The translations under genes and the position numbers were made by a program. Below, piece by piece: positions 2,416 to 25,668 of a stretch of 27,250 bases of DNA. The first letter of the stretch is position 1; each line of letters begins with the position of its first letter. The notes below the pieces were generated by a model. The model saw nothing but the letters and a program-made list of their open reading frames with translations. It was not told where the DNA came from and ran no database searches. This stretch comes from a virus, in IMG/VR virus record IMGVR_UViG_3300043411_000902, positions 1 through 27,250 of that record; one strand, 5' to 3'.

Positions 2416-2508
2416 ATCAACCTCACTTTGCTAACCTACCTACCGACGAAAAAACAGTACCCACTACATATATAGCACGCCATAGGCCAGAACCAAAAAA
2501 GCCTTATG

Positions 2509-2527
2509 AATCAAGCACTTAGCGCAT
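2509..2527 (+). promoter_or_regulatory. IHF consensus site 1 within direct repeat copy 1
   Basis: AATCAAGCACTTA at 2509-2521 fits the Escherichia coli IHF consensus WATCAANNNNTTR at every defined position. It overlaps a 17-nt exact direct repeat (TCAAGCACTTAGCGCAT, 2511-2527). The second copy starts 105 bp further on, ten turns of B-form DNA, so both sites face the same side of the helix. Confidence 0.6.
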
Positions 2528-2574: not shown

Positions 2575-2592
2575 TGTTACACTTGTTACACT
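2575..2592 (+). repeat. tandem TGTTACACT x2
   Basis: Two perfect, directly adjoining copies of the 9-mer TGTTACACT lie between the two IHF sites. They could be a pair of binding sites for a phage initiator, regulator or TerS. There are no further exact copies nearby. Confidence 0.6.
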
Positions 2593-2613: not shown

Positions 2614-2632
2614 AATCAAGCACTTAGCGCAT
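2614..2632 (+). promoter_or_regulatory. IHF consensus site 2 within direct repeat copy 2
   Basis: AATCAAGCACTTA at 2614-2626 is again a perfect match to WATCAANNNNTTR. It lies in the second exact copy of the 17-nt repeat (2616-2632). The DnaA boxes begin about 80 bp to the right, a distance compatible with IHF bending acting on an initiator complex. Confidence 0.6.
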
Positions 2633-2639
2633 TCACCCG

Positions 2640-2670
2640 TTCTTTACAGCACTATCTTGCCTTTACAGCA
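2640..2670 (+). repeat. CTTTACAGCA direct repeat, plus inverted copy
   Basis: CTTTACAGCA occurs at 2642-2651 and 2661-2670, 19 bp apart. TTCTTTACA (2640-2648) also has an exact inverted copy, TGTAAAGAA, at 2553-2561. TTTACA resembles a -35 box, but the recurrence in both orientations makes a protein-binding site at least as likely. Confidence 0.5.
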
Positions 2671-2703
2671 ATATATTGCATGTTTCCCAGCTCCCAGCTC
2701 TAT

Positions 2704-2741
2704 TGTGGATAACTCTACCCTTGTGCATAACATGTGGATAA
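2704..2741 (-). promoter_or_regulatory. cluster of three DnaA boxes
   Basis: TGTGGATAA (2704-2712), TGTGCATAA (2722-2730) and TGTGGATAA (2733-2741) are the complements of TTATCCACA, TTATGCACA and TTATCCACA. All three fit TTATNCACA perfectly, all in the same orientation, with starts 18 and 11 bp apart. Boxes 1 and 3 share a 12-nt word (TGTGGATAACTC). About 0.02 such boxes are expected by chance in this spacer, so a cluster of three is a strong signal for binding of host DnaA. Confidence 0.8.
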
Positions 2742-2772: not shown

Positions 2773-2823
2773 TGCTTACAAACATACCCACCCCCCAGGA
2801 CCTTTTTTGAGTCTGATCTGCTG

Positions 2824-2870
2824 TCCTATCCTATTACAACTCTTTTATTTTCCTAAACTTTTTCCAATCA
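2824..2870. other. G-free A+T-rich tract, possible duplex-unwinding element
   Basis: These 47 nt contain no G on the plus strand and are about 72% A+T. They lie between the DnaA boxes and the first structural gene. Strand asymmetry and low stability fit an unwinding element, but I see no clear DnaA-trio array and no 13-mer repeats. Confidence 0.4.
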
Positions 2871-2933: not shown

Positions 2934-3518
2934 ATGCAACTTACCACCACCACAACTACAGAAGAGCGCGCACTTTCCCTTTTGGGACAGGGTTGCGGAC
3001 CTGAGCTTGTTGCTTCTGCAATCGGTGTTTCAGTTTCCAGGATTTCCCAGCTCCTTTCCCTCCCGGAATTTGCAGAAAAAGTCGCAGCGCTGCGCTTTCA
3101 GAATCTAGCAAAACACAACGAACGGGATCAGCGAGCGGATCGGATAGAGGATATGCTTCTGGAAAAGCTTGAGAATATCATTCCTTTCCTGATGGATCCA
3201 ATGAAGATCATCATGGCATATACAAAGATCAATGCAGCGAAAAGGCGTGGTTCTTCTAGCCCGGATGCAATCACTGCGCAAACCACGGTAGTAGCTCTGA
3301 ACATTCCCTCTGTAGTTATCAATCAACACGTTAAGAATGATGTGACCGTGAATATCAATAATCAAGTAATCAAAGCGGGTGCCCAAGATCTAATCACAGT
3401 GCAATCTAGCAATATGGAGAAACTTCTTGCACGTTCAAAGAGTCTCGCACCTATGGCAGAAATCGCGAATGCAGTTATGTCCCCACCACAGAATCAAGGT
3501 GTACAAAATGTCCCGTAA
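2934..3518 (+). CDS. small terminase subunit (TerS), DNA-recognition protein
   Basis: This 194-aa protein starts after CTAGGAA (about 9 nt before the ATG). Residues 5-45 form a helix-turn-helix: EERALSLLGQGCGPELVASA, then IGVSVSRISQLLS. A long helical segment follows (residues 45-110: ERDQRADRIEDMLLEKLENI and on), then a beta-rich C-terminus with VVALNIPSVVINQH and VTVNINNQVI. HTH, oligomerising helices and a beta tail are the usual TerS layout, and it lies just before TerL as expected. TerS binds the packaging site on the concatemer and hands it to TerL. Sequence similarity across TerS families is low, so the call rests on layout and position; a transcription regulator is the main alternative. 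Confidence 0.72.
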   Translation: MQLTTTTTTEERALSLLGQGCGPELVASAIGVSVSRISQLLSLPEFAEKVAALRFQNLAKHNERDQRADRIEDMLLEKLENIIPFLMDPMKIIMAYTKINAAKRRGSSSPDAITAQTTVVALNIPSVVINQHVKNDVTVNINNQVIKAGAQDLITVQSSNMEKLLARSKSLAPMAEIANAVMSPPQNQGVQNVP

Positions 3519-3654
3519 TCCCACTTTCCAAGAGCTTCGCGCTCTAAAAGAAGCTGAAAGCAAAGCCCGGATCCTTGCCAAAAACAAGGAAGCTGCGCGC
3601 GCACACCTTCTTACCACCCAACTTTTGCTAGCAAAGCGCCCTCTTTCCAAATGA
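3508..3654 (+). CDS. 48-aa basic helical protein coupled to terminase genes
   Basis: This small ORF (MSRNPTFQEL...KRPLSK) overlaps the end of TerS by 11 nt and the start of TerL by 4 nt (ATGA), so the three are probably translationally coupled. Residues 6-40 are a single amphipathic helix rich in Lys, Arg, Glu and Ala (ALKEAESKARILAKNKEAAR). It may bind nucleic acid or the terminase complex, or exist mainly to couple translation. I do not recognise a family. The double overlap, which uses the whole TerS-TerL gap, is the main evidence that it is real. Confidence 0.65.
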   Translation: MSRNPTFQELRALKEAESKARILAKNKEAARAHLLTTQLLLAKRPLSK

Positions 3655-5198
3655 GTCAAGAAACTTGGGAGGAAAAGCTTGGATTCTCAGCTCCTGCGCT
3701 AGATGAACCTTCGCCAGAACACCTTCCTCCTTCAGAACAGCACTACAATGCAGCAGAAGTTGAGGCACTAGCGAAGAATTCCCTGGATTTCCTGGCGGCG
3801 CTAGCAATGCCGCTGGTTTTCCGCTATCTTTTTCCTGATCTTTTCAAAGCTGCCTGGAATTGGCTCCTCTCTTATGTGCACAAAGAGCGAGATTTTTCGC
3901 AATTGGCATTAGGCTTGCCTCGCGGCTTTGCAAAAACCACATTTATCAAGATTTTCCTGCTCTATGTAATCCTTTTCACCAAGAGAACCTTCATCCTTGT
4001 CTGTGCGAACAACCAGGACAAAGCAAATGCGATTGTTGCTGACGTTATGGACTTCCTTGATGAGCCGAATATCAAGAAGGTCTTCGGAGATTGGCGAATT
4101 GGCGCGGAAACCGATCAGCAGAAGCAGAAGAAATTTGGTTTTCGTGGTCGCAATATCAACATTGTAGCAGGCACTGTAGATACAGTTCGCGGTCTAAACC
4201 TGAAACATCAGCGTCCAGATGTGATGTTATTTGATGACATCCAGAACCGAAAAGAAGCGGAATCTGAGGTAATTTCCCGGCAGATTGAGACAGATATGTA
4301 CGGAACCGCTATGAAAGCGAAGTCTCCGCACGGCTGTCTCTTTATCTTTGTAGGGAATATGTATCCCACAAAGTGGTCTCTCCTTCGCCGCCTCAAGCAC
4401 AATCCAACCTGGTTCAAATTCATTGTCGGCGGTATCCTTGCAACCGGGCAATCTCTCTGGGAAGAACTTCAACCGTACGATCAGCTCCTGAAAGAGTACG
4501 AGAATGACTTGGCAGCCGGGCGCCCAGAAGTATTCTTCGCGGAAGTTCTTAATGACGAAACAGCTTCCTCAAATCACCTCGTTGATCTTTCAAAGCTTCC
4601 CGCATATACGATCCCAGAAGATGAAATCCACCAGGGCAATTTCATCGTCATTGATCCTGCAACAGACAAGGCGAACGCTGATGCAGTCACGGTAATGTAT
4701 TTTGAAATCTATGACACCAAACCAGTCTGTAAAGAGCTAGTCGAAGACCGTCTATCCCCAGGGGAAACTATTTCCACAGCACTTAGAATGGCGCTAAGAC
4801 ATAACTGCCGCGTGGTTGGAATTGAATCCAATGCGTATCAATATACCCTCAATTATTGGTTCGCCTTCATATGTCAGCAAATGGGTGTTATTGGTATAGA
4901 GGCGGTGGAACTATACTCCGGAACGTACTCAAAGAACTCACGGATCATGAGTACCTTCAAAGAACTAATGGCTGGGGAACTGCTGATTCACCCTTCCTGT
5001 ACTGCAGCAGTATTTCTCCAGATAACGCAGTTCAATCCTCTCAAGAGAGACAACGTAGACGGTATCTTAGATTGCCTCTCCTACGCAAAGAAGATGATTG
5101 AACTGTACGGACATTACATTGCATCAACTCTTACTCTGGAAATGCAGGAATTCTCAGCAATACCTGTTCTTCTAGAGGGTGAGAACTCTCCATTCTAG
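3651..5198 (+). CDS. large terminase subunit (TerL), ATPase-nuclease packaging motor
   Basis: This 515-aa protein has the full two-domain TerL layout. The N-terminal ATPase carries a Walker A-like GLPRGFAKTT (residues 88-97), a Walker B VMLFDDIQ with Asp195-Asp196, and a likely coupling segment FIFVGNMYP (231-239). The C-terminal RNase H-like nuclease has FIVIDPATD (Asp335), VGIESNAYQ (Glu392) and an acidic cluster NVDGILD (Asp470, Asp474). It binds the portal vertex, translocates DNA into the prohead using ATP, and cuts the concatemer. It starts in a 4-nt ATGA overlap with the preceding 48-aa gene. All key residues are present and the length is typical, so it should be functional. Confidence 0.96.
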   Translation: MSQETWEEKLGFSAPALDEPSPEHLPPSEQHYNAAEVEALAKNSLDFLAALAMPLVFRYLFPDLFKAAWNWLLSYVHKERDFSQLALGLPRGFAKTTFIKIFLLYVILFTKRTFILVCANNQDKANAIVADVMDFLDEPNIKKVFGDWRIGAETDQQKQKKFGFRGRNINIVAGTVDTVRGLNLKHQRPDVMLFDDIQNRKEAESEVISRQIETDMYGTAMKAKSPHGCLFIFVGNMYPTKWSLLRRLKHNPTWFKFIVGGILATGQSLWEELQPYDQLLKEYENDLAAGRPEVFFAEVLNDETASSNHLVDLSKLPAYTIPEDEIHQGNFIVIDPATDKANADAVTVMYFEIYDTKPVCKELVEDRLSPGETISTALRMALRHNCRVVGIESNAYQYTLNYWFAFICQQMGVIGIEAVELYSGTYSKNSRIMSTFKELMAGELLIHPSCTAAVFLQITQFNPLKRDNVDGILDCLSYAKKMIELYGHYIASTLTLEMQEFSAIPVLLEGENSPF

Positions 5199-6474: not shown

Positions 6475-8508
6475 ATGGCAGCCGACCAAGCCTTTAACAT
6501 CCCAAAGAATGTACAAGAAGGATTGATTCAATATCACCGAACAGCTTCCACATTGGTCGAGCGTCAATGGAATCTTCGGGAACAGATGCTGAACATCGAT
6601 CTTGCATACCTCCGGGAGCAGGATAATACAACCGAGAATCAGCGAGCTCGCATTTACAATCGTGCGGGCGATTCAAACAAGATCCAGAACATTACGATTC
6701 CTGTTATCAAACCACAGGTGCGCGCAGCCGTAGCTTACCAAGCCGCTGTGTTTCTAACCGACTATCCAATCCTTGGCGTTGTTGCCTCTCCAAAGTACAT
6801 GGAAGCTGCCAAGCAGATGCAGGCAGTTATCGAAGAGAATTCCATTCGGGGTTCCTGGACTCGTGAACTCCTTCTGTTCTTCCAAGATGGGTTCAAATAC
6901 AATCTCTCAGCAATTGAACTTGCCTGGGACAAATGCACTACTGCAGCACTGGATACTGATGTAACTTTCCGAGGTGGTCAGGAAGGCAAGGTCCGGGAAG
7001 TTATCTGGTCTGGAAATGTGCTGGAACGCTGGGATCCGTACAATACTTATTTCGATTGCCGCATTGATCCATACGATATTCCTACCAAAGGGGAGTTCTG
7101 CGGTCATACGAAACTGATGTCACGTACCGCCCTCAAGACTTTCATTGCAAAGCTTGATAACAAGATTACCGAGAACATTCGTCCTGCCTTTGAATCTCCT
7201 TCCATTCTGAACTCTGGAGCTGGCGGACAATACGGCGCATCTTTCTACCTTCCCATTGTCAATCCTGATGCAATCATTGATTCCAGGAATGTTGGTTACT
7301 TCGATTGGGACGGTTGGGTAGGTCTTTCCCAAGCTACTCGCAAGGACGGCTCTAGGATTTCCTATCGTGGAATCTATGAGGTTTCCATTGAGTACGTGAG
7401 AATCATTCCCTCTGATTTCGATCTGAAGGTTCCGGCTCGCAACACTCCGCAGGTTTGGAAACTCATCATCGTGAATCATTCGGTGATAATCTACGCCGAG
7501 CGCCAAACTAACGCACACGATAAGATTCCCGTATTTTTCGGCTGCCCTTCCGAAGATGGCCTTGGCTATCAAACCAAATCTCTCGCCACTGATGGACTCC
7601 CGTTCCAGCAAACTTCCTCCGCTCTGATGAATTCTGTGATGGCTTCCCGCCGTCGCGCTATTACTGACAGAACTTTGTATGATCCTTCACGTGTGTCAGA
7701 AGCGCACATGAATTCATCCAATCCTTCCGCTAAGATTCCGGTTCGCCCGGCAGCTTACGGCAAGCCAGTTTCAGATGCTGTTTACCAGTTCCCTTTCCGA
7801 GATGACCAGTCAGGTATCAATCTCCAGGAAATCCAATCTCTGATCAATTTCTCTAACACTCTGAATGGCCAGAATGCAGCGCGCCAAGGTCAGTTTGTCA
7901 AGGGGAATAAAACTGACGGACAGTGGCAATCTACCATGTCCAATGCAACTTCTAGCGATCAGATGACAGCCTTGCTTTACGAAGCACAAGTGTTTACTCC
8001 GCTGAAGGAAGTTCTCAAACTGAACATCCTGCAATACCAAGGTGCGGCTTCAATCTATTCTCCTTCCCAGAAGAAGGAAGTCTCAGTAGATCCAGTCCTT
8101 CTGCGCCAGGCAATCATCAATTTCAAGGTGACTGATGGCCTTTTGCCTTCTGATAAGGTAATCTCCGGAGAGTCCTTGAAAGCTGCAATGCAGATCATTG
8201 GAACTTCTCAAACCTTGGGAGGCGCATACAACATTGGTCCGATGTTCTCCTATATCATGAAGTCTGAGAATGTGGATCTGGAGCCGTTCCAGAAATCTCA
8301 AGGTCAGATTGCATACGAACAAGCTCTTGGACAGTGGCAGATGGTTGCACTGGAAGCTGCTAAGAAAGGCACTCCGATCAATACCCCCATGCCTTTGCCA
8401 GAGCAATTCGGCTATGATCCTGAGATAAATGATCCAGAAGAAGCTGGCGAACAAGAACTTTCCACTAACCAACCTACTAGCGGAGGTATGTCAAATGGCG
8501 CAACTTAA
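6475..8508 (+). CDS. portal protein
   Basis: This 677-aa protein starts 9 nt after TTAGGAAA. Its position (after TerL, before scaffold and capsid) and length fit the large portals of podoviruses. Visible hallmarks are an N-terminal helical region, the block TIPVIKPQVRAAVAYQAAVF (about residues 82-101), the WDPYNTYFDCRIDPYDIP segment (about 189-206), and a long helical stem and crown region rich in Gln and Asn (about 440-560). The acidic tail ends in EEAGEQELST. Twelve copies should form the ring at one vertex through which DNA enters and leaves, docking TerL and later the adaptor. Its end overlaps the next gene by 14 nt. Confidence 0.9.
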   Translation: MAADQAFNIPKNVQEGLIQYHRTASTLVERQWNLREQMLNIDLAYLREQDNTTENQRARIYNRAGDSNKIQNITIPVIKPQVRAAVAYQAAVFLTDYPILGVVASPKYMEAAKQMQAVIEENSIRGSWTRELLLFFQDGFKYNLSAIELAWDKCTTAALDTDVTFRGGQEGKVREVIWSGNVLERWDPYNTYFDCRIDPYDIPTKGEFCGHTKLMSRTALKTFIAKLDNKITENIRPAFESPSILNSGAGGQYGASFYLPIVNPDAIIDSRNVGYFDWDGWVGLSQATRKDGSRISYRGIYEVSIEYVRIIPSDFDLKVPARNTPQVWKLIIVNHSVIIYAERQTNAHDKIPVFFGCPSEDGLGYQTKSLATDGLPFQQTSSALMNSVMASRRRAITDRTLYDPSRVSEAHMNSSNPSAKIPVRPAAYGKPVSDAVYQFPFRDDQSGINLQEIQSLINFSNTLNGQNAARQGQFVKGNKTDGQWQSTMSNATSSDQMTALLYEAQVFTPLKEVLKLNILQYQGAASIYSPSQKKEVSVDPVLLRQAIINFKVTDGLLPSDKVISGESLKAAMQIIGTSQTLGGAYNIGPMFSYIMKSENVDLEPFQKSQGQIAYEQALGQWQMVALEAAKKGTPINTPMPLPEQFGYDPEINDPEEAGEQELSTNQPTSGGMSNGAT

Positions 8509-24288: not shown

Positions 24289-25668
24289 GTGGCACACTAC
24301 GCCCTAAGAATTGGGTTTGGAAATCTGCCTTCGTGGAGAGCCTCTGCGACTGAAAAGGTGTGGTTTGAAGTTCCTGTAGCACAAACTTTTGCAGCTTGGC
24401 TACAGGCAACTGATGCTACAAACTACGGAGGGTCCGATCCCTACGGTGGTGTGATAAATGCCTTCTGTAACGGAGCTTATTCTCCTACACTCAAAACCAC
24501 TGTTTATCATGGTGGCGGGCATGGGGACGCTCGTAATAATGGTGGGTACGCTTTCAATTGGCTAACCTCCACTTACAGCGTAGCTTGGGCTTCCACTCCG
24601 ATGGCAGCTAGACCTCCCGATTATGAACCTACTGGAGGATATGCCCTTTATCCCAGTGGATTGCACACAGGACGATTTGAAACTTCTTCAGTCCTAACTG
24701 ATCCCGCAGATTCAGGATATGCCGCTTCTGCGTTAAGTGTTCCAAGTAGGCATACTTATAGCGGCTGTGAGATTGTTGAAATTTCCGGTGTTCCGCACTA
24801 TATGCGAATATATGCTGCACCTGGAGAATGGAATTTATCCACAGGTGTTATGAGAGATGTGTCCCAAATTGCGTGGGGGCAGAGACTCCTTGATTGCACC
24901 GGATATTACCGAAACGGTTCTTTGCGAGCAGACCAAACCGCTGCGGCCCAGGGATACGCTAATTACTTCAATCTCACGGGTAATGCTGACTATACACAAG
25001 GTATGGTTGCCATTAACGGTGGCGCACAGCAGATTGGACAAATGGCCCGATCAACGCAAAGCGTGCGTGATCCTGCCACTGGAAAATTCTGGGCAACTTT
25101 AAATCCAGGCGATTGGTCCATGAACGGCCGCAATGGGATTATGAGATATAGCGCAGATGGTCAGACAGTTGAAGTTGTTGTTGACCACGATGTTGGGTAT
25201 GCAAACTGGGCCATTGAACTCAGTACCTCTTTAGTAATAGCTGGTGCTTATCTTTATATCTTTACTGTAAATACTCCAGGTGTTGGCACTAATGTGGCTA
25301 TGCGAGGTTGGCGCATTCATACCACTACATTAGTAACTGAGTGGATTACCATTGTTGGTGATTCATTAGAGTGGACATCTGGACAAGAAGTTGTCCCGTG
25401 CTTTTTTGACGGCTTAGAAATCATTCGCTGGAATTACATCGAATCACGCGATGCTGTATATCGCCTGAATCTCACGCCCGAAAGTGGTGCGGGAACATTG
25501 GCATCTCCATATGTAATGAGGCAAACGCTGCAAACCCTGACAGCCAGCAGTATGCCACTTCCAGCATGGACTTACAGACTGGATTACGATAGGGATTACC
25601 AAGGCGTATGTCTTCTACCGAATGGTACTGCAAAGCCCTGGTTTTTACCTTGGGCATGGAGAGGATAA
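24289..25668 (+). CDS. Kelch/galactose-oxidase-like beta-propeller, probable receptor-binding protein (459 aa, GTG start)
   Basis: The GTG at 24289 is 6 nt after the previous stop and lacks a good ribosome-binding site, so translation is probably coupled; the next in-frame ATG would remove the first conserved blade. The segment YSPTLKTTVYHGGGHGDARN then NGGYAFNWLTSTYSVAW (about residues 64-101) is the typical Kelch-type blade with its Gly-Gly-His-Gly-Asp turn. Similar but weaker blades follow (MVAINGGAQQIGQMARSTQS; ATGKFWATLNPGDWSMNGRN; IIRWNYIESRDAVYRLNL). Such propellers bind carbohydrate or protein ligands. It is flanked by other cassette genes, so it is likely a surface-exposed virion protein. 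No oxidase copper ligands are claimed. Confidence 0.68.
   Translation: MAHYALRIGFGNLPSWRASATEKVWFEVPVAQTFAAWLQATDATNYGGSDPYGGVINAFCNGAYSPTLKTTVYHGGGHGDARNNGGYAFNWLTSTYSVAWASTPMAARPPDYEPTGGYALYPSGLHTGRFETSSVLTDPADSGYAASALSVPSRHTYSGCEIVEISGVPHYMRIYAAPGEWNLSTGVMRDVSQIAWGQRLLDCTGYYRNGSLRADQTAAAQGYANYFNLTGNADYTQGMVAINGGAQQIGQMARSTQSVRDPATGKFWATLNPGDWSMNGRNGIMRYSADGQTVEVVVDHDVGYANWAIELSTSLVIAGAYLYIFTVNTPGVGTNVAMRGWRIHTTTLVTEWITIVGDSLEWTSGQEVVPCFFDGLEIIRWNYIESRDAVYRLNLTPESGAGTLASPYVMRQTLQTLTASSMPLPAWTYRLDYDRDYQGVCLLPNGTAKPWFLPWAWRG

Follow-up and report, generated by a model that had tools for sequence, protein, structure and literature searches.

Early genes of virulent phages are usually thought to be driven by strong sigma70 promoters or by promoters of a phage RNA polymerase. 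Enhancer-dependent sigma54 promoters of the glnA or nif type are built from a GG-N10-GC core with the consensus TGGCAY-N5-TTGCW, IHF sites and upstream activator sites. Closely spaced DnaA boxes accompanied by IHF sites are known from oriC-type arrays and from regulatory elements of Escherichia coli, namely datA, which consists of DnaA boxes and an IHF site, and DARS1, which contains three boxes (PMC11853086). Moreover, DnaA boxes were predicted by Ori-Finder in a Pseudomonas phage (PMC11512268). Within the Studiervirinae, TGTGGATAAC arrays are located beside the genome ends of phiEap-1, Shigella phage A7 and Escherichia phage P483. Concerning terminase sequences, the closest described phages are the Fredfastierviridae-like podoviruses (Pseudomonas phages PaP2 and PaMx41) and Polaromonas phage Tiera, which show distant TerL homology (32–35%).

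The virus record analyzed here over its full length of 27,250 bp (hereafter the window) is a podovirus genome whose rightward genes are structural. It shares the gene order small terminase, TerL and portal as well as a G-tract/T-run/TATCCTA element preceding the terminase genes with PaP2, PaMx41 and Tiera, whereas neither DnaA boxes nor a clear sigma54 site were seen in the spacers of PaP2 and Tiera. The family represented by the window resembles glnA- or nif-type promoters in the order and spacing of its elements and, for some members, in NtrC-like palindromes located upstream. Here, however, the arrangement is phage-borne, features DnaA boxes in place of activator sites, and its function is predicted from sequence motifs. 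Likeness to datA, DARS and oriC-type arrays consists in closely spaced DnaA boxes combined with IHF sites, but the phage spacers have no adjacent AT-rich unwinding region above the family background and their boxes are not kept in relatives. The Studiervirinae arrays belong to unrelated phages and differ in being located inside or beside direct terminal repeats without an adjoining sigma54 site.

In the window, leftward early genes and rightward terminase genes are parted by a spacer (2416–2933). An earlier note on this DNA had described a 518-nt spacer upstream of the terminase genes, and its boundaries, the 83-aa leftward ORF and the small-terminase gene, were confirmed (Table 1). The three perfect same-strand DnaA boxes reported therein were likewise recovered, all of them fitting TTATNCACA on the minus strand with start-to-start distances of 18 and 11 bp. 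Dinucleotide shuffles of the spacer predicted approximately 0.035 boxes; among 20,000 shuffled spacers, one box was obtained in 674, two in 14 and three in a single case, and none of 300 shuffles of the whole window contained three boxes within 60 bp. A chance origin of the triplet was thus ruled out. Since both outer boxes share the 12-nt repeat TGTGGATAACTC, the three boxes do not represent independent events, which corrects the earlier note, and duplication may have enlarged the array. A further perfect box at position 24835 (plus strand), located within a gene, corresponds to chance level, as 0.9 boxes are expected per shuffled window.

Table 1. Features of the window in and around the spacer.
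Feature	Position	Strand	Remarks
Conserved leftward gene, 222 aa	1117..1785	-	Bounds the spacer in relatives
First leftward ORF, 83 aa	2164..2415	-	~60 bp downstream of the sigma54-like site
Putative sigma54-like leftward promoter TGGCCTATGGCGTGCT, GG-N10-GC, then ATATAT	2474..2489	-	8/11 consensus positions
IHF-consensus site (WATCAANNNNTTR) in repeat AATCAAGCACTTAGCGCAT, copy 1	2509..2527	+	20 bp upstream of -24 of the sigma54-like site; kept in L004, L006 and others
Two TGTTACA repeats	2575..2590	+	Word enriched in family spacers
IHF-consensus site, copy 2	2614..2632	+	105 bp further upstream than copy 1
Tandem repeat CTTTACAGCACTATCTTGC, two copies	2642..2679	+	Palindromic GCACTATAGTGC in L004 and L006
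DnaA box TTATCCACA	2704..2712	-	Exact match
DnaA box TTATGCACA	2722..2730	-	Exact match
DnaA box TTATCCACA	2733..2741	-	Exact match; 2-bp gap to box 2722..2730
Conserved cos-like element: G/C tract, T6, TATCCTAT, AT-rich tail	2787..2866	+	Nearly all relatives
Small terminase	2934..3518	+	Synteny and homology to annotated Tiera gene order
Large terminase	3651..5198	+	PHROG 38, E 4e-47

The N base was C in 35 of 41 tallied boxes and, judged by this base, the boxes are of the predicted high-affinity type. Spacings between boxes on the same strand peaked at 11–12, 22 and 33 bp, which suggests that they are exposed on one face of the helix. A DnaA gene was absent from the 14 family records searched, and a sigma54 activator scoring above the family cut-off was not found in the family records searched, and any action at these sites would thus fall to host proteins. 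The direct use of host DnaA proposed in the earlier note is therefore plausible, whereas the replication origin or plasmid-like stage considered along with it is doubtful. The boxes probably constitute a genuine binding array for host DnaA, placed in the control region that separates the early operon from the packaging end, and we infer that DnaA binds there.

The sigma54-like site of the window is degenerate and was placed by homology with L004 and L006. Screening of the window spacer for sigma70 promoters was negative, clear NtrC-like activator palindromes were not found in the window, and the leftward flanking genes (the 83-aa and 222-aa ORFs) did not match Pfam or PHROG entries. Neither a plasmid iteron nor a promoter for a phage RNA polymerase was retained as the interpretation of TCAANCACTTAG, because this sequence fits the IHF consensus and adjoins sigma54 sites. 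Comparison with genome contigs yielded a single match to an Anaerolineae MAG, probably a binned phage, and accordingly no host was assigned.

Relatives of the window were collected by two protein scans (nine) and an alignment scan (approximately 80), resulting in 61 spacers after removal of near-duplicates. Wherever contigs were long enough, the leftward 222-aa gene, the spacer and the small and large terminase genes followed each other in this order. The leftward arm of near-complete relatives encodes a family A DNA polymerase (PolA), a DUF3987 primase-helicase and a Dda/RecD-like helicase, in addition to a Sak4-like protein and exonucleases. With replication genes to the left and terminases to the right, the spacer separates the early arm from the structural arm. 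An extra ORF between the cos-like element and the small-terminase gene was observed in L009, L010, L190 and L217, looking homing-endonuclease-type in the first three.

The spacers follow a regular order, in which a leftward sigma54-type promoter comes first, IHF sites and a slot filled with varying repeated boxes come next, and the conserved cos-like element comes last. Leftward TGGCAY-N5-NTGCW followed by TATATA, which fits the sigma54 consensus, was detected 31 times in 26 spacers compared to 0.6 times in shuffled sequences, and about 24 relatives possess a strict site. The only strict sigma54 site of each of the 44-kb genomes G001 and G002 is located in the spacer and points to the early genes; the only near-match in G003 lies elsewhere. 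Upstream of the sigma54 site, one or two IHF-consensus WATCAANNNNTTR sites are present (24 versus 3.5 in shuffles).

The slot is exchangeable at the level of predicted motifs, since relatives hold other operator-like repeats there, some of them Fur-like or NtrC-like. Fur-like AATGANAATGATT (13 occurrences), TGACAN5TGTCA (8) and NtrC-like TGCACN7GTGCA (4) each compare to 0.03 in shuffled spacers, and TTAGTNAG (33) and TGTTACA (34) each compare to 7. Several of the spacer patterns, from the sigma54 site to the cos-like element, were picked only after the spacers had been read, so that their enrichment is descriptive, unlike the DnaA pattern, which was set in advance by the original observation. 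The AATGANAATGATT sites, carried by L185, L195, L198, L207, L208, L212, L217, L226, L228, L242, L243 and L253, are mostly located 36–100 bp left of the cos-like element. The TGACAN5TGTCA palindromes belong to the spacers of L179, L201, L205, L207, L249 and L252. Furthermore, GTTAGTNAGCACTCACTAAC-like repeats resembling a TetR-type operator adjoin the cos-like element in L004, L006, L190, L192, L204 and L236.

The element comprising the G-tract, the T-run, TATCCTAT and the AT-rich tail is kept in nearly all members as well as in PaP2 and Aeromonas phage P5. The Tiera record starts and stops inside the same element, and the ends of this genome were determined with PhageTerm (PMC9959647). The element is accordingly regarded as a probable cos-like site, based on mapped ends for Tiera and on homology only for the window, whose genome end is expected near 2831/2832 by comparison with Tiera. 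The DnaA array is thus located approximately 90–130 bp from the predicted end.

Perfect-box arrays at or near genome ends were also found in cultured phages, namely Enterobacter phage phiEap-1, Shigella phage A7, Klebsiella phage Kp7, Arthrobacter phage Tiff81 and Vibrio phage BD1, in all cases within approximately 220 bp of the record ends. E. coli phage P483 possesses a homologous array in a rotated record, Streptomyces phage LilMartin features four boxes at 121.2 kb, and five boxes flank a sigma54-like site in Limnohabitans phage DC31. The assumption that phages with lytic-type modules rarely carry such boxes was therefore wrong. Taken together with the window, what the arrays have in common is a location next to the genome end and to the first early promoter. 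This position makes a role in packaging possible, in which the array together with IHF would mark or protect the terminase cut site, similar to the short repeats beside T7 ends. Such a role is very improbable, as an exact DnaA consensus is not expected of a small-terminase site, relatives devoid of boxes presumably package their DNA, and we know of no packaging function of DnaA. The repeats of microvirus mar31 were rejected as DnaA boxes, since they correspond to TGTGGAAAAC; in this virus (L296, 1940–2070), eleven TGTGGAAAACC repeats are located between the capsid and pilot genes.

Within the family, the slot contains clustered DnaA boxes in six of the 61 spacers (the window, L188/L191, L192, L212 with six and L254 with five boxes). 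L189 has a single box in poor context, and the remaining 54 spacers have none. In total, 20 boxes were counted in the spacers compared to 2.6 in shuffles. These 20 boxes fall into 43 kb of spacer sequence, compared to 18 in the remaining 587 kb of the loci, while the reversed-pattern control gave 1 and 15, respectively. On the TerL tree the arrays are scattered, requiring five changes, at least four of which are forced by well-supported branches. The sister and closest relative of the window, L002 (89% TerL identity), possesses a spacer without boxes, and L188 and L191, whose TerL sequences are nearly identical, differ by one broken box. These scattered differences indicate that the array is under rapid turnover. 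The L002 contig is chimeric and carries an inverted duplication; within its positions 1–1750, the small-terminase region is inverted relative to the large terminase gene. In L004, an inverted pair of perfect DnaA boxes (7094–7128) adjoins a small early gene.

A DnaA-dependent origin, at which host DnaA and IHF would open the spacer after genome circularization and load the helicase, has to be judged against this turnover. Clustered perfect boxes separated by 2-bp gaps and a nearby IHF site (two consensus sites, recognized at the sequence level only) are present in the window as in oriC-type arrays. Family records lack a DnaA gene of their own, and in L254 three tandem 13-bp repeats (ACCATCTCATCAT) directly follow the five DnaA boxes on the 3' side. 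An AT-rich unwinding element linked to the boxes was not observed, the AT content of the slot being equal with (0.60) and without boxes (0.59). The boxes were repeatedly lost or gained, so that conservation was rejected as proof of an origin; their absence from L002 and from 54 of 61 spacers is the loss in close relatives that the earlier note had named as speaking against its reading. The turn of the skew expected in that note was not seen either, as the window and the near-complete relatives show no consistent minimum at the spacer and G001 even has a local maximum nearby. GC skew as such was uninformative, being small and dominated by gene strand. Moreover, relatives have replication proteins of their own (PolA, a primase-helicase and a Dda-like helicase), and such arrays are also carried by T7-like phages, which replicate without DnaA. 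An origin at the spacer is hence considered rather unlikely.

Rapid turnover would be tolerated by a sink or switch similar to datA, in which many phage copies carrying boxes and an IHF site titrate DnaA or drive hydrolysis of DnaA-ATP and thereby stop host initiation. This explanation is a serious rival, because datA itself consists of DnaA boxes and an IHF site, both of which are present in the window. Furthermore, it needs no unwinding element and agrees with the occurrence of arrays in phages for which DnaA is dispensable. Three boxes are few compared to those of the host chromosome, however, and a location next to early promoters and genome ends would be unnecessary, which renders the sink improbable.

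Viral contigs were also scanned for strict sigma54 sites preceded by an IHF-type site, DnaA boxes not being required. Among the 39 contigs obtained (30 distinct), the latter 30 contained 18 DnaA boxes in the 500 bp upstream, 2 downstream and 12 elsewhere (13.8, 14.0 and 261 kb, respectively), compared to 1, 0 and 10 matches of a control pattern. NtrC-like palindromes were likewise biased toward the upstream side (7, 0 and 2). For the converse, at least 120 loci, including near-copies and about ten independent ones, were chosen solely for DnaA-box triplets. Among the matches listed, 20 sigma54 sites were located within 400 bp of the triplets (98 kb) versus 4 in the other 903 kb, corresponding to an approximately 46-fold enrichment. 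Many of the triplet loci listed come from a group whose large terminase is a different one and which features 8–11 boxes between the sigma54 site and the terminase operon. Tandem arrays of up to about ten IHF-consensus-like (A)TCAANNACTTAG repeats were noticed in the unrelated phage contigs L140, L135, L145, L156 and L165, and several tandem sigma54-like sites per intergenic region in L018, L092, L258 and L268.

What the sequences show are thus the DnaA boxes together with sigma54 and IHF motifs, the order and enrichment of these elements and, across unrelated phages, a bias of the boxes toward the upstream side. This bias, the association with sigma54 and IHF sites and the swap with other operator-like arrays favor a regulatory input on the early promoter, a reading to which a probability of roughly 0.4 is assigned. 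That such clusters recur next to sigma54-type promoters or genome ends of many unrelated phages likewise makes a host-controlled switch likelier than a simple replication origin. Host DnaA, together with IHF, would bind the spacer of the freshly injected DNA and act as an input on a leftward early promoter of the sigma54 type, by which early transcription would be coupled to the replication and growth state of the host. Both a working promoter at the sigma54 site and an effect of DnaA on its activity are predicted from these motifs. The degenerate sigma54-like site of the window, the lack of boxes in most relatives and the choice of some motif patterns after inspection of the spacers speak against this regulatory reading, and to our knowledge DnaA is not an activator of sigma54. 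Furthermore, obvious sigma54 promoters were not seen beside the arrays at the ends of phiEap-1, A7, P483 and the Arthrobacter and Vibrio phages; sigma54 regulation therefore cannot account for every array. With respect to the DnaA-controlled transcription of the structural operon suggested previously, regulation fits better than an origin, but its target would be the leftward early operon.

Neither a description of sigma54-driven early promoters in virulent phages nor one of DnaA arrays as a general trait of phage ends was found in the open literature, which is weak evidence of novelty, since most subscription journals were outside the search. Recurrence of the arrays beside sigma54 sites and at the ends of unrelated phages raises the general question of what use host DnaA is to phages with their own replisome, and an answer was not found in the open literature searched. 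Tentatively, a class of virulent phages may exist whose early operon is controlled by host sigma54 and IHF and whose swappable arrays for host regulators (DnaA, NtrC-like, Fur-like) are located between the promoter and the end of the genome. Whether infection goes ahead would then depend on the replication, nitrogen and iron state of the host, with lineages swapping the sensor. For the family described here, an early region equipped with DnaA, IHF and sigma54 sites would make phage development responsive to the physiology of the host.
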